The notes under the pieces: model-generated
Told to the model about the DNA's origin: nothing
What the model saw: only the letters and a program-made list of their open reading frames with translations
Databases searched by the model: none
From: Asterochloris sp. CNOR1
Taxonomy: Eukaryota > Chlorophyta > Trebouxiophyceae > Trebouxiales > Trebouxiaceae
Reading direction: 5' to 3'
DNA: 64,000 nt
NCBI GenBank assembly: GCA_963969365.1
Contig: OZ017753.1
Location: forward strand, 1 to 64,000
Translations under genes and position numbers: made by a program
Part shown: piece after piece, positions 21,321-39,661 of the stretch
Position numbering within the stretch: the first letter of the stretch is position 1
Layout: every line of letters begins with the position of its first letter

Positions 21321-24300
21321 TCACTGTGCGTTGCGCAGCCACTCAACAATCTGCATGGCCGTTGGTCGAAGCTCTGGCTCACTGCGGGTGCACTCCAGGA
21401 ACAGCCGCGCTGCAATGGGCGGGCACACAGCCGGAAGCTGCAGCGTGCTAGAGCTCCCATCAGAGGAGCCATTGAGCTGCAGCAACAAGCAGGCAGCACC
21501 TCAGCAGGGCATGCAACCAGCAGATCAGCGAGATGCAACACGGTCGACTGCAGAGTGCTGGAGCGCCCCCTTCAGAGCGTCTTTGACCTGCGTCAGCAAG
21601 CAGGCAGCATACGAGTGAGGCAAACGATCAGCAGCCGCAGCGTGACAAGGCTCCTGTTGGAGGAGCTGTCGAGTTTTTGTGGTTTTGTTTTTTGCAGGCG
21701 GCACATCAGCGAAGCACACTACATCAGCGGGGCATGTCAGCAGTCCTTGCCATCCAGCAGAGGTGAGCATTGCGTGCAGACAGAGGGCAGCCTGCAGCGT
21801 GCCTGGCCCCCACTACCTGCCTCCTGTACGGCAGCTATCATCACTGTCTCACTGCAAAGCCTGGCAGACTTGCCCTACCTGCAGAACTTTGTCCTTGCTG
21901 AGCAGGGCCTGCTATGCATATGCATAAAGTTTCAATGCAGCCAATGCTTTCCAGGTTGCCGCCCTTGGCACAAATGTGGTTACCTTTCAGAGAGCAATTG
22001 CTTGTGTGTGGTTGTGTCCAAAGCAGTATCCATCCCAGCAAGGTACACAGCGCAGAGTTGCGCATGCCCACTTGATGCCCACCGCGGCTCCAGATCCAGA
22101 CCTGCAGCTGGGCCGACTGCCAGCCACCACATGAGTGTAGGGCCAGCAAGGCCTCAGTCGAGGCGACACAAACCTGTGGCGCCTGCTTGTGTAGGGCTTG
22201 ACCCAGATCCACCTCACAACACTGACTTGCATGGCCGGCTGGTGTATGGTTTGTATACGATCCAGCTCACAGCACTGACCTGCATGGCCTGCGCGATGGC
22301 CAGCGGCTGGAACTCGGTGATGTCAAGGCCGGTGATGAGCTCCCAGACGAGGATGCCGTAGCTCCAGATGTCTGCCTTGATGCTGGCACGCTCGTGCCGG
22401 ATCACCTCTGGCGCAGCCCACAGGGGCGTCATCACAGGTTGCGCTGCAGGAACGGGACAGCTGAGGCAACAAACCCTCTCTCAAGATGTGTGTCCCCCAG
22501 GGGAGCATGACACAGATGAATACAGCAAGTATACAGTGCCAGCACCACCTCAGCCAGGAGCATCAGCCAGACCTGGTCAAAAAGTGGCGCCAGTGCAACT
22601 AGGCTGTGAGCCAAGGTGCTGGTGCGCTGCAGGCGTGCAGTGGCGGCCATGCGGTCAGCAACGGACACAAATCATCAAGACCTCTCCAGAAGGATGTTCA
22701 CCGCATCATTGCGCAGTGTGCACCACTATATGACACCGCAAGACGCCCCCACCTCTGCCCCTGCCCTGACAACAAACTCAGCAGAGCAAATTGCTTGGCA
22801 ACGTTCCCACCACCTGATTGCCCAGTGTCCAGCGTTGCAGCATGCACCTGTACCCCTGCCTCGGTGACAGGCTCAGCAGAGCGGAATGCCGGGCATGGTT
22901 CTCACAAGGCTGACCAGTGTGCTGCCTTATGGTACAGCTTGAATGATCAGTGCAGCCTCTCACCAGTGACCAGCTCCTTGACCTGGGAGCGCACCATGCC
23001 CACATCGGCAATCTTGGCCACCCCCTCCTCTGACAGCAGCACGTTGGGGCTCTTCAGATCGCGGTGCATCATGGGCGGGCGTCTGCAGGGCCCAGTCAGT
23101 GGGTGAGACAAGAGTCATGGGTGAGACATGAGGCGCCCCATGTGGGTACAGACATGAGACTCCCAGTGCATGGTGGCGCCAGCAGCAGCATCAGCTGACA
23201 GCCCAAGTGGGTAAGAGATGAGGCTCCCAGTCTAGACACCCCATGCTGCCACACTGCAACAGCTTGAGCTGTTGACATCCATGCCTTGGGCTTTGACTGA
23301 GGCGGCAAAAACCTACAGCTGGGCTGCTCCTTCCAAGTTTCTTGGTTGCTCTCCTCTGAGAGCTCATTACACGCAGGCGCAAGATCAAAGCACAACCTTC
23401 CACCCACCGTGTGTGCAGGTAGTTGATCCCCAATGCAACGTCCATGGCCACCTTGCGCCCCAGGCGGTCCCAGCGCATCGTCTCTGGGTGGTTGCGCAGC
23501 GCGCTGTACAGGTCGCCGCCCTGCAAGGGCAGCCCATTGCTTTCATTGCTATTATATCAAGTGCACACTGTCTGCAGAGTAAAGCTGTCAAGCAGCAGTC
23601 CTGCTTGAGCGCTGGAGGTACCACAGTGGCAGGCTTCGAGCCGCAGCCTGTTCTCTGCAGACGCGCTTGAGCGCTTTAGGCACCAGAGGAGCGGCCCCAG
23701 GAACCAACTTTTCCTGTGCAGACGTGCCCAAGCACTGAAAGGCACCACAGTAGCAGGCCCCAGGGAGCAGCCTTTCCTGTGTAGATGTGCTTCAGCCGAC
23801 TGACTGTTGCATCAGTTGCAGACACTGGGCATCCGCACATGCAGAACACCCACATTACTTCTACACGCAAGGAAGCCACATCACATCTGCAGCTTCGACT
23901 GCGCTGCTCACCTTCATCAGCTCTGTGACAAAGAACATGGACCCTGGCTCCAGGCAGGCGCCATAGAACTGCACAATGTTGCGGTGGTGCAGCTTGCGCA
24001 GGATGCGGACCTGCAGGCCAGATTCAGCGCTCAGAAAGGCAAAAGCAACTGACCTGCAGATCTAAAATGGTGCAAGTTGCACAGGATGCCAACCTGCAGA
24101 GCACCAAGCAGCGCACAGGGTTGACACACCGCTGCTGGTGTTGCAAAGTGGGTCAGGCAAGCACTGCACGCTGGTACCGCTTCTCATCGTTGCAAAATCA
24201 AATTGTTAGCCACACTGCAGAGGCTCAAGTCGCCCATGGGCGTGTTGGCATCCCTGGCTTGCAGCGATTTGTGAGGGCTCATGGTTGTGCAGGCAGGCCA

Positions 24301-38000: not shown

Positions 38001-39661
38001 TCCTATACAGCGCTGGCCTTGCAGTTCCCTCCTCCCTCCACCCCCCTTGACACTTTTCAGGTGCTGCCTGCCTGCAGGTCTCTCGTGCCCCTCCTCAATA
38101 TTCTGTGCACAGCACACATACACCTCATCAGGTCTTCCCTTGCAGTGTTCCAGTGCTGTCTGCCTGCAGTCCTCTGATACTGCCCGTGCACTTCTCCAGT
38201 GCTGCCCGCCTGCAGTGCTTCAGTGCGCCCCCTCACCAACTGCTCCAGCTGGCCCTGCCAGTTCGTGTCCAGCAGGGCCGCCAGATTGGGGCTCCCCAGG
38301 GTGGCCCTGGCGCTGCCCTGCGGGGGGGCAGGGGGGTCAGCACCGCTCACCGCTGCCAGCCGCTCCTGTTGGTCCTGCCAAGTGGAGTCCAGCAGGGTGG
38401 CCAGGTTGCTGCTGCCACGGCTGGCGCGGGTACTCCCTGGGCGGGGGCCAGCCTCCTCAAACCTGCAGCGGCATGCATGGCTCAGCATGGCAAAGACAAA
38501 GCTAGCCAGCATGGGTCTTTTCCGCCCAGGCGCCTGCCTGCAGCTTGCAGCACGTGCACATGTAGGCTGTGGCCACCTCATGTGAGGCCAGGTTGTTACC
38601 CCATCCATACGGATGTTGGCTCCAGTACCCTGCAGCAGGAGCAGCTCAACCTCCAGCAAACTCTCATGTGGAGCACCAGAAGGAGCTTCTGATTACCCCT
38701 CCTACTGCCCTGGCTATCGCTGGCCAAGGCAGATGCCTCGTCAAAACTTCTGCACCATCAAACAGCAATGCTCTTCATGTTTCTCTGGCACCTGAGCCAC
38801 TGTTTTACTGACGCTGACGGCTGTGCAGCGTATGCAGCCTAGGAAGGTTGCTGCCAGGGTTGTGGCGGGCCCTCAAAGCCCACAGCCTACACGTGATGGC
38901 AGGCAGCAAGACGCAGAGCTGTGGTCAGTGCTGCGGCGGCCTGCCAGAAACAGCCCAAAGGCATCCAGCATGATGCATAGCTGTGGCACCAGCACTGGGA
39001 CAAACCGTGCCAAACCACTGGTGGCCAGTGCTACACATCAACACAAGCTGTCCCTGCCTCTCCAAGTCAGACAAGCAGCAGCAACCTGTGCAGCCAGGCA
39101 GCACACCACGCGTCCCTGCACTAGGCATCGTGCCAGCCCCCACAGCAGCTCAGCAGATGAGTGAGACCCAATGCCACACATCAGGGCCGTCGCTGCCCGC
39201 CAAGCAAACTCGAAGCAGCTGCAGATTGAGCTGCCCAAGATGCCACCATCAATGCGGCACAACATCTGTAATGCATGCCTGCCCCGAAGCCTGCTGGCAC
39301 GAGTGCAGCAGTGTGCGGCCAGACCCCAAGCCTGCTGCATGTGGTCAAGGTAGAGATTGTTGGCTGGTGTAAGGGCTCCTGCAGTCCAGTAGCCTGCCGA
39401 CATGCATGCAGCATCCAAGCCTTTGGGGGCTGCATGGCCACAATCAGTTGGGATGCACACAGCTCCTGCCGTACAGTGTGCAGGGCCTCACTTGGTGCCT
39501 GCAGGGCTGGAGAGGGTCTCTGCGCTGTCCGTGACATAGGTGACGCTGCTCGGAGGCGCCTCTGACGACCCGTCCACCGTGCTGAGCGCCTTCCGAGACG
39601 CGCCCGAGCCTGAGGGGCGCAGCCAGCGGGAGAGCCTGTCCTTGAGCTTTATCTTGCCCAT
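29100..39661 (-). CDS. Armadillo-repeat protein with low-complexity head, N-terminal module of a large locus
   Basis: Proposed start Met at 39661 (MGKIKLKDRLSRWLRPSG). Head exons: 39492-39661, 38237-38462 (two 25-residue repeats), 37045-37154, 35650-35920 (Gln-run and Ser/Pro-rich); one or two exons between 37045 and 35151 are unresolved. ARM exons: 34909-35151, 34460-34606, 33734-33876, 33146-33290, 32450-32647, 32101-32228, 31653-31792, 31272-31367, 30899-31054, 29907-30076, 29100-29189; all in phase, about 550 residues, ten or so repeats. Typical repeat cores: VVDELREGSVEARSAAAEKL, AGAIPALISVLNTSK, GVVEALVGMLRTGNAQGQIY, SAAPEVRSQATGTLETVA. Such superhelical arrays usually bind protein partners. 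The last ARM exon ends in phase 0 and continues in phase into the PCMT exon 28639-28749. The ARM fold is certain as a class; the joining of the head to the ARM part is less so. Confidence 0.85.
29549..30480. repeat. Multiple decayed copies of both ends of one armadillo exon
   Basis: Exon 29907-30076 is flanked by copies of itself. Its 3' end (GCAGCACTGTGCTGCAGGGC on the + strand near 29914) recurs near 29683 and 29564 with few changes. Its 5' end (CACACGCGTACCAACG...GGGCACCTGCAG, 30049-30082) has diverged copies near 30154, 30266, 30375 and, shorter, 30445. Only the central exon is in phase with its neighbours. Confidence 0.75.
31463..31525. repeat. Decayed copy of an armadillo exon end
   Basis: CCTGCTGCAATTGTGCGCTC through CTGCCATGTTGCATAG resembles the end of exon 31653-31792 (CCTGCTGCAATGATACGCTC through CCGCCATGTTGCAGAG). 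The copy lies about 185 bases away in the downstream intron and has lost its frame. Confidence 0.7.
33288..33405. repeat. Short tandem repeat next to an armadillo exon start
   Basis: Three copies of AAGGGTCAAAGTTGAGCGAC-like 21-mers (33302-33362) are flanked on both sides by copies of the exon acceptor region (CCAGGCACCTACAGGCAGGC at 33284 and CCAGGCGCCTGCAGGCAGAC at 33379). The array lies in the intron upstream of exon 33146-33290. Confidence 0.7.
35890..36115. repeat. Three tandem copies of an exon start, about 100-base period
   Basis: The start of exon 35650-35920 on the + strand contains CTGGCCTGCCCAGTGGAG and GAGGCTCTGCAGCAGTGCAG. The same pair recurs at about 35983-36030 and 36080-36120, separated each time by a GAAGGA(G/A)GTGGCG block. 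Only the first copy lies in the open exon; the other two are in the preceding intron. Confidence 0.75.
38237..38462 (-). repeat. In-frame coding duplication in the N-terminal head
   Basis: Within one exon two segments of about 25 residues repeat: SSNLATLLDSTWQDQQERL and SPNLAALLDTNWQGQLEQL, each preceded by STRAS/SARAT. They are separated by a Pro/Gly-rich spacer. This is a translated duplication, unlike the intronic copies elsewhere. Confidence 0.75.

Follow-up and report, generated by a model that had tools for sequence, protein, structure and literature searches.

The 64-kb window analysed here, which is the whole stretch from position 1 to 64000 of contig C8 in the Asterochloris sp. CNOR1 assembly (56.4 Mb, 21 contigs), carries on its minus strand a gene for which no near copy was found elsewhere among the candidates listed in the genome. 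We consider it probable, at a little over 60%, that this gene encodes one protein of about 1,400 residues, in which a Raf-like kinase is combined with an armadillo (ARM) scaffold and a repurposed, PCMTD1-like input domain. From the ARM array onwards the exons splice into one open frame, the domains are recognised in its translation, and the architecture is conserved among relatives. Judged from its residues, the product seems to act in signalling and not as a repair enzyme. The domains are known ones in a new combination, and the family appears uncharacterised. The initial annotation of this DNA knew of no described protein of this architecture and, likewise, we found no paper describing an ARM, PCMT and kinase combination in the literature searched, though gene models with it have been deposited under the database names 'hypothetical protein' or 'protein kinase domain-containing'. 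To our knowledge, there is no description of a kinase under the control of a methyltransferase fold of the protein-repair type.

Exon structure and domain content

Between positions 35093 and 21321 of the minus strand, 24 exons read from the sequence join into a single open frame, with 23 of 23 introns of the GT...AG type, matching phases at every junction and no stop until the TGA at 21323-21321, which 1162 codons precede. Since the exons were chosen by eye from open frames and splice sites, the agreement of phase and frame is partly by construction, and homology with relatives serves as the independent test of the model. The ARM array (29100..35093) comprises exons A-F (35093-34909, 34606-34460, 33876-33734, 33290-33146, 32647-32450 and 32228-32101) and G-K (31792-31653, 31367-31272, 31054-30899, 30076-29907 and 29189-29100), all with GT-AG introns and consistent phases; the segment SAAPEVRSQATGTLETVA is formed only once exon J (30076-29907) is spliced to exon K (29189-29100). 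The PCMT-type methyltransferase-fold domain follows in exons P1-P4 (26827..28749; 28749-28639, 28084-27881, 27666-27459 and 26963-26827), then a Ser/Pro-rich, poorly conserved linker in exons L1-L3 (25176..26528; 26528-26376, 25820-25762 and 25373-25176), and finally the TKL (Raf-like) kinase domain in exons K1-K6 (21321..24554; 24554-24386, 24010-23912, 23520-23408, 23082-22964, 22443-22280 and 21476-21321, the last ending in TGA).

The exon coordinates and phases that had been given for the two module boundaries were exact on re-reading of the minus strand. The last ARM exon (29189-29100) enters and leaves in phase 0, as do the first PCMT exon (28749-28639) and the linker exon (26528-26376), and for the last PCMT exon (26963-26827) the phase is 1 on entry and 0 on exit. 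The gaps counted earlier between the modules also proved exact, and both are GT-AG introns of phase 0: the ARM/PCMT boundary intron has 350 bases (28750..29099, minus strand), and homologous proteins are continuous across this point; the PCMT/linker boundary intron has 298 bases (26529..26826, minus strand), and its exon edges are apparently the same in a Trebouxia-like fragment (P0162), as far as its translation indicates.

Pfam analysis of the 1162-residue model returned Arm, PCMT and kinase domains in that order, each above its cut-off. Tandem ARM repeats (PF00514) scored 102.5 bits, with four stretches passing individually; the PCMT family (PF01135) matched residues 545-716 with 56.5 bits against a cut-off of 20.3; and in the kinase region (residues 904-1157) PF07714 (PK_Tyr_Ser-Thr, 181.2 bits) scored above PF00069 (171.3 bits). 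Conservation of the ARM array peaks at model residues 121-220, a candidate partner surface, and the linker is the longest stretch of poor conservation, as expected of a tether. Among the candidates listed in the genome search there is no near copy of the gene elsewhere, the PCMT-type, linker and kinase exons matching strongly only their own locus. The proposal of the initial annotation that ARM, PCMT-type and TKL kinase modules form one polypeptide is thus borne out by the open frame, the Pfam domains and the conserved family described below.

Relatives with the same architecture

The protein search scored 7993 candidates and gave 806 matches, of which the best 120 are considered here. Co-occurrence of the three modules, which the initial annotation suggested seeking in other chlorophytes, was found in at least 11 proteins (P0001-P0010 and P0012) that carry ARM-type, PCMT and kinase Pfam domains; PF00514 itself is present in 10 of them, and P0010 has just related ARM families. 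All 11 are longer than 1200 residues, and nine of them match the model over 98-100% of its length, with identities of 33-58%. The other two, P0006 and P0007, gave a single short local BLASTP alignment each (24% and 23% of the query), but in the family alignment, where the domain order is also seen, they span 92-99% of each domain. Six of the 11 come from named green algae, namely Myrmecia bisecta, Trebouxia sp., Apatococcus fuscideae, Symbiochloris irregularis, Bryopsis sp. and Ostreobium quekettii. NCBI taxonomy places Apatococcus and Symbiochloris in the Trebouxiophyceae and Ostreobium in the Ulvophyceae. Judged from these protein models, the architecture is conserved across two green-algal classes.

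Two records point to a single mRNA in relatives, to the extent that translated sequences can. P0009 is labelled as a complete TRINITY transcript open reading frame, and P0002 is an uninterrupted open reading frame of 1314 amino acids on a 5359-nt contig. The fragment P0162, from a 29.9-kb contig, shows one exon-like stretch with intron-like sequence before 'GGRMTVPCEG' and after 'VDEHGTQ', and these edges coincide with those of exon P4 of the Asterochloris gene; P0002 is therefore most likely a spliced transcript crossing the PCMT/linker boundary, a view drawn from translations, not from reads.

Family profiles found ARM-type repeats and a kinase, and no PCMT domain, in the Micractinium (P0013) and Prototheca (P0014) proteins and in P0011; in P0015 they matched the kinase only. 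The ARM profile scored 307.5 bits for P0011, 56.8 for P0014 and 37.9 for P0013, and it also scored P0108, an 849-residue ARM protein with no kinase in its Pfam list, at 208.4 bits, so that matches to this profile show ARM-type repeats and not orthology of the array. When other large proteins with a PCMT-type domain were sought among 7992 scored candidates, only the query and three family members were returned, and this search is weak on absence because it missed known members, P0002 and P0008 among them.

Some gene models call for care. P0003 is without part of the PCMT domain, and gene models may skip exons. P0010 (eukprot g3120.t1) is extended at its N-terminus by several hundred residues and has a MAGE-type domain (PF01454) in addition to the family architecture, possibly reflecting two merged genes, and P0011 (eukprot gene9273) carries a beta-helix domain (PF13229), apparently C-terminal, which may be a gene-model fusion. 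Over a part of the PCMT-type domain, two further protein fragments taken from other records, P0144 and P0145, show 93% and 98% identity, so close relatives of Asterochloris sp. CNOR1 have been sequenced.

Substitutions in the PCMT-type domain

In PIMTs, a Thr and the Ser two residues on are reported to bind L-isoaspartate and an Asp-Gly pair to contact S-adenosylmethionine (AdoMet) (PMC11522691). The segment aligned to the canonical isoaspartate-binding TISAPHMHA reads VLGDMRAEG in the Asterochloris copy (28007..28033, minus strand, counted from the start of exon P2 at 28084), so that Val stands in place of the Thr and Gly in place of the Ser. The motif alignment covers ten family proteins and three fragments, 13 rows in all, and does not include P0006 or P0003, which is without the stretch. 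Across these rows the Ser position is Gly in six, Pro in six and Ser in one (P0009), so that Ser is absent from 12 of the 13; it is kept in all eight canonical or other-PCMT rows, two of them from the same genome (contigs C1 and C7), and in PCMTD1 too. The GDG that holds the Asp-Gly contact is GSC here, is absent from 13/13 family rows and is present in all six canonical rows covering it. The Arg of the (P/D)R motif, which we take to be Arg36 in human numbering, is found in 13 of 13 family rows. A human R36C variant is reported to retain less than 1% activity (PMC5983485), and exchange of the Ser for Ala is reported to abolish activity in the fly PIMT (PMC11522691) and, as Ser60 to Ala, in midge PIMTs (PMC7565475). 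The glycine-rich AdoMet motif and its acidic residue are retained in the Asterochloris copy; this motif departs further in the Ostreobium and Bryopsis copies (DVQCGTG and EVGCNTG).

Two other PCMT genes of the genome, at C1:3692500-3698500 and C7:1272500-1278500, carry (T/N)ISAPHMHA, and the one on C7 is, away from the locus itself, the best match to the kinase-linked domain (53% identity across 36 residues). A further PCMT-like stretch lies on C7 near 900.8 kb.

Human PCMTD1 and PCMTD2, which join a PCMT domain to a SOCS box and act as CUL5 adaptors, provide the best PDB sequence match of the Asterochloris domain (9OMA): PCMTD1, the single PCMTD sequence in the comparison, came first among PDB sequences by 31.6 bits (profile A1). 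The fold of a family member is the PIMT fold, and the fold comparison prefers neither PCMTD1 nor PIMT. The GDG of PIMTs is replaced by GNC in PCMTD1, which thus has Asn-Cys at the Asp-Gly position, and by GSC here, and after the last aligned strand the comparison of PCMTD1 with the Asterochloris copy gives DQL/GQL. Unlike the Asterochloris protein, PCMTD1 has a SOCS box and neither kinase nor ARM array, and its TIS motif (HLSAPC) still contains the Ser that is missing from the Asterochloris copy; at E <= 0.1 Pfam gave 13 families for the 1162-residue model, and SOCS_box is not one of them. One report describes PCMTD1 as binding AdoMet and CUL5 with no isoaspartyl methyltransferase activity seen, and PCMTD2 as a CUL5 adaptor (PMC10798966). 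Canonical PCMT1/PIMT shares the fold, the Arg of (P/D)R and the glycine-rich AdoMet motif with the Asterochloris domain, which has lost TISAPHMHA and GDG and sits inside a kinase protein. A precedent is reported in the complex I PIMT of Paracoccus denitrificans (PDB 8QBY, chain t), where the PIMT fold is reused as a structural subunit without catalysis (PMC11522691); it, too, is without the Thr/Ser pair and the Asp-Gly that contacts AdoMet, but is a stand-alone subunit of a bacterial respiratory complex, without a kinase.

What is kept is thus the scaffold with part of the AdoMet site, and what is lost is the isoaspartate site, which argues against a protein that marks damaged protein by methylation. 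That part of the initial annotation is not upheld: no isoaspartate methylation would be expected, because the Thr/Ser pair is replaced, with Ser absent from 12 of 13 rows, and because the domain is by sequence closest to PCMTD1, itself reported to lack that activity (PMC10798966).

Kinase domain

The kinase is, by its sequence, of the TKL (Raf-like) type with intact catalytic residues. The Gly loop, Lys, HRD, the Asp of DxG and APE are all present, and the catalytic motifs are intact in 15 of the 15 proteins checked, a set outside which P0015 lies. Across these 15 the DFG motif is DVG (exon 22964-23082), or DVA in Apatococcus. The Asterochloris domain is 55-84% identical to the 14 relatives aligned, P0015 being left out. 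Among the best 60 of 851 PDB matches are CTR1, MLK, RAF and TNNI3K, alongside Src and other tyrosine kinases; CTR1 (3PPZ, 5.2e-44) is the top plant kinase, and an EGFR entry (9P9U) scores marginally above it without a single stretch passing. EDR1-like kinases, which belong with CTR1 to the plant Raf-like TKL group, are among the nearest other matches of the protein search. The Asterochloris model differs from EDR1-like P0018, P0020 and P0021, for which PF14381 is listed, in being without that domain, and the family differs from CTR1/EDR1 in having DVG for DFG and in grouping apart from other kinases in the tree.

In that tree, 16 family kinases separate from four other kinases (99/98; midpoint rooting, long separating branches); P0019 and P0035 are absent, their glycine loop not having been found by the script. 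The Micractinium-Prototheca group (91/93) suggests a single loss of the PCMT-type domain there, although Apatococcus, of the same order Chlorellales as Micractinium, has the domain. This small tree, with four non-family kinases and most deep forks open, does not put the gains and losses of the domain in order.

Proposed function and alternative explanations

The protein would run from a basic N-terminal stretch and a low-complexity region through the ARM array, the PCMTD1-like domain and the Ser/Pro-rich linker to the Raf-like (TKL) kinase. The ARM array would dock partner proteins. The PCMT-type domain would no longer repair isoaspartate and, because of the analogy with PCMTD1 and the Paracoccus complex I subunit, may serve as an input, as a ligand-binding or docking module for AdoMet, S-adenosylhomocysteine (SAH) or protein. 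Together with the ARM partners, its state would determine how active the kinase is or where it is targeted, and the kinase would relay the signal by phosphorylation. The kinase family, in which the methyltransferase-fold domain proposed as input no longer has its repair site, spans two green-algal classes. Were this domain to gate the kinase, protein ageing or methylation state would feed a signalling route in algae, and for PCMTD1 there would be a relative whose enzymatic output, kinase activity, can be read.

More specific versions of this scheme are held with less confidence. It is a tentative possibility that the protein is a damage- or metabolite-reading receptor kinase, in which the PIMT fold, no longer repairing and presented by the ARM array, recognises AdoMet/SAH or aged peptides (isoaspartyl or related) and switches the kinase in cis. 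Sensing of AdoMet/SAH in particular, which would tie kinase output to methylation state, seems rather unlikely: the glycine-rich motif and acidic residue are kept in the Asterochloris copy and PCMTD1, the nearest solved relative by sequence, is a reported AdoMet binder (PMC10798966), but the Asp-Gly contact is lost, and the Ostreobium and Bryopsis copies diverge further. That the domain is a working isoaspartyl methyltransferase, repairing or marking damaged proteins near the kinase, is improbable in spite of the Pfam score above the cut-off, the PIMT fold and the conserved Arg and AdoMet motif, given the Val/Gly pair at the isoaspartate-binding positions and the near absence of the Ser from the family. 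Replacement of that Ser is reported to inactivate fly (PMC11522691) and midge (PMC7565475) PIMTs, and ISAPHMHA is present in two further PCMT genes of the genome.

We regard as highly improbable that three adjacent genes were wrongly joined through introns. What speaks for it is that the exons were picked by eye on genomic sequence. TGTAA, the poly(A) word of chlorophytes, is absent from both boundary introns and equally from the 1.3 kb past the stop codon, and is hence uninformative on module separation. Against such a joining stand the consistent phases over 24 exons and the at least 11 protein models that combine these three domains, including two from transcript-type records; separate genes for ARM, PCMT and kinase were rejected on the phases and the homologues.

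N-terminal region and intronic exon copies

The probable first coding exon (39492..39661, minus strand) begins at 39661 with MGKIKLKDRLSRWL and would encode a short basic N-terminal stretch. This start is similar to the N-termini of relatives (P0001, P0002, P0004, P0005 and P0011), for example MAKMKLKDRLAKLM and MGKLKDQFNRLM, and the exon end comes from a codon-usage model. The coding parts between 39492 and 35093 derive from codon-usage modelling only; dynamic programming on codon usage places there a low-complexity region (35532..38462, minus strand) with tentative exons at 38462-38237, 37913-37861, 36732-36612, 35920-35696 and 35574-35532.

Introns of the gene contain partial copies of its exons J, P4, G, P2 and B (29564-29727, 30126-30158, 27019-27155, 31469-31520, 27740-27850 and 34781-34822), with 79-96% identity over 23-55 bases when the low-complexity filter is off, and some of the P4 matches are CTG-rich. 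No exon matches were found in the rest of the window outside the gene at E 1e-3. These copies probably reflect a history of tandem exon duplication and decay.

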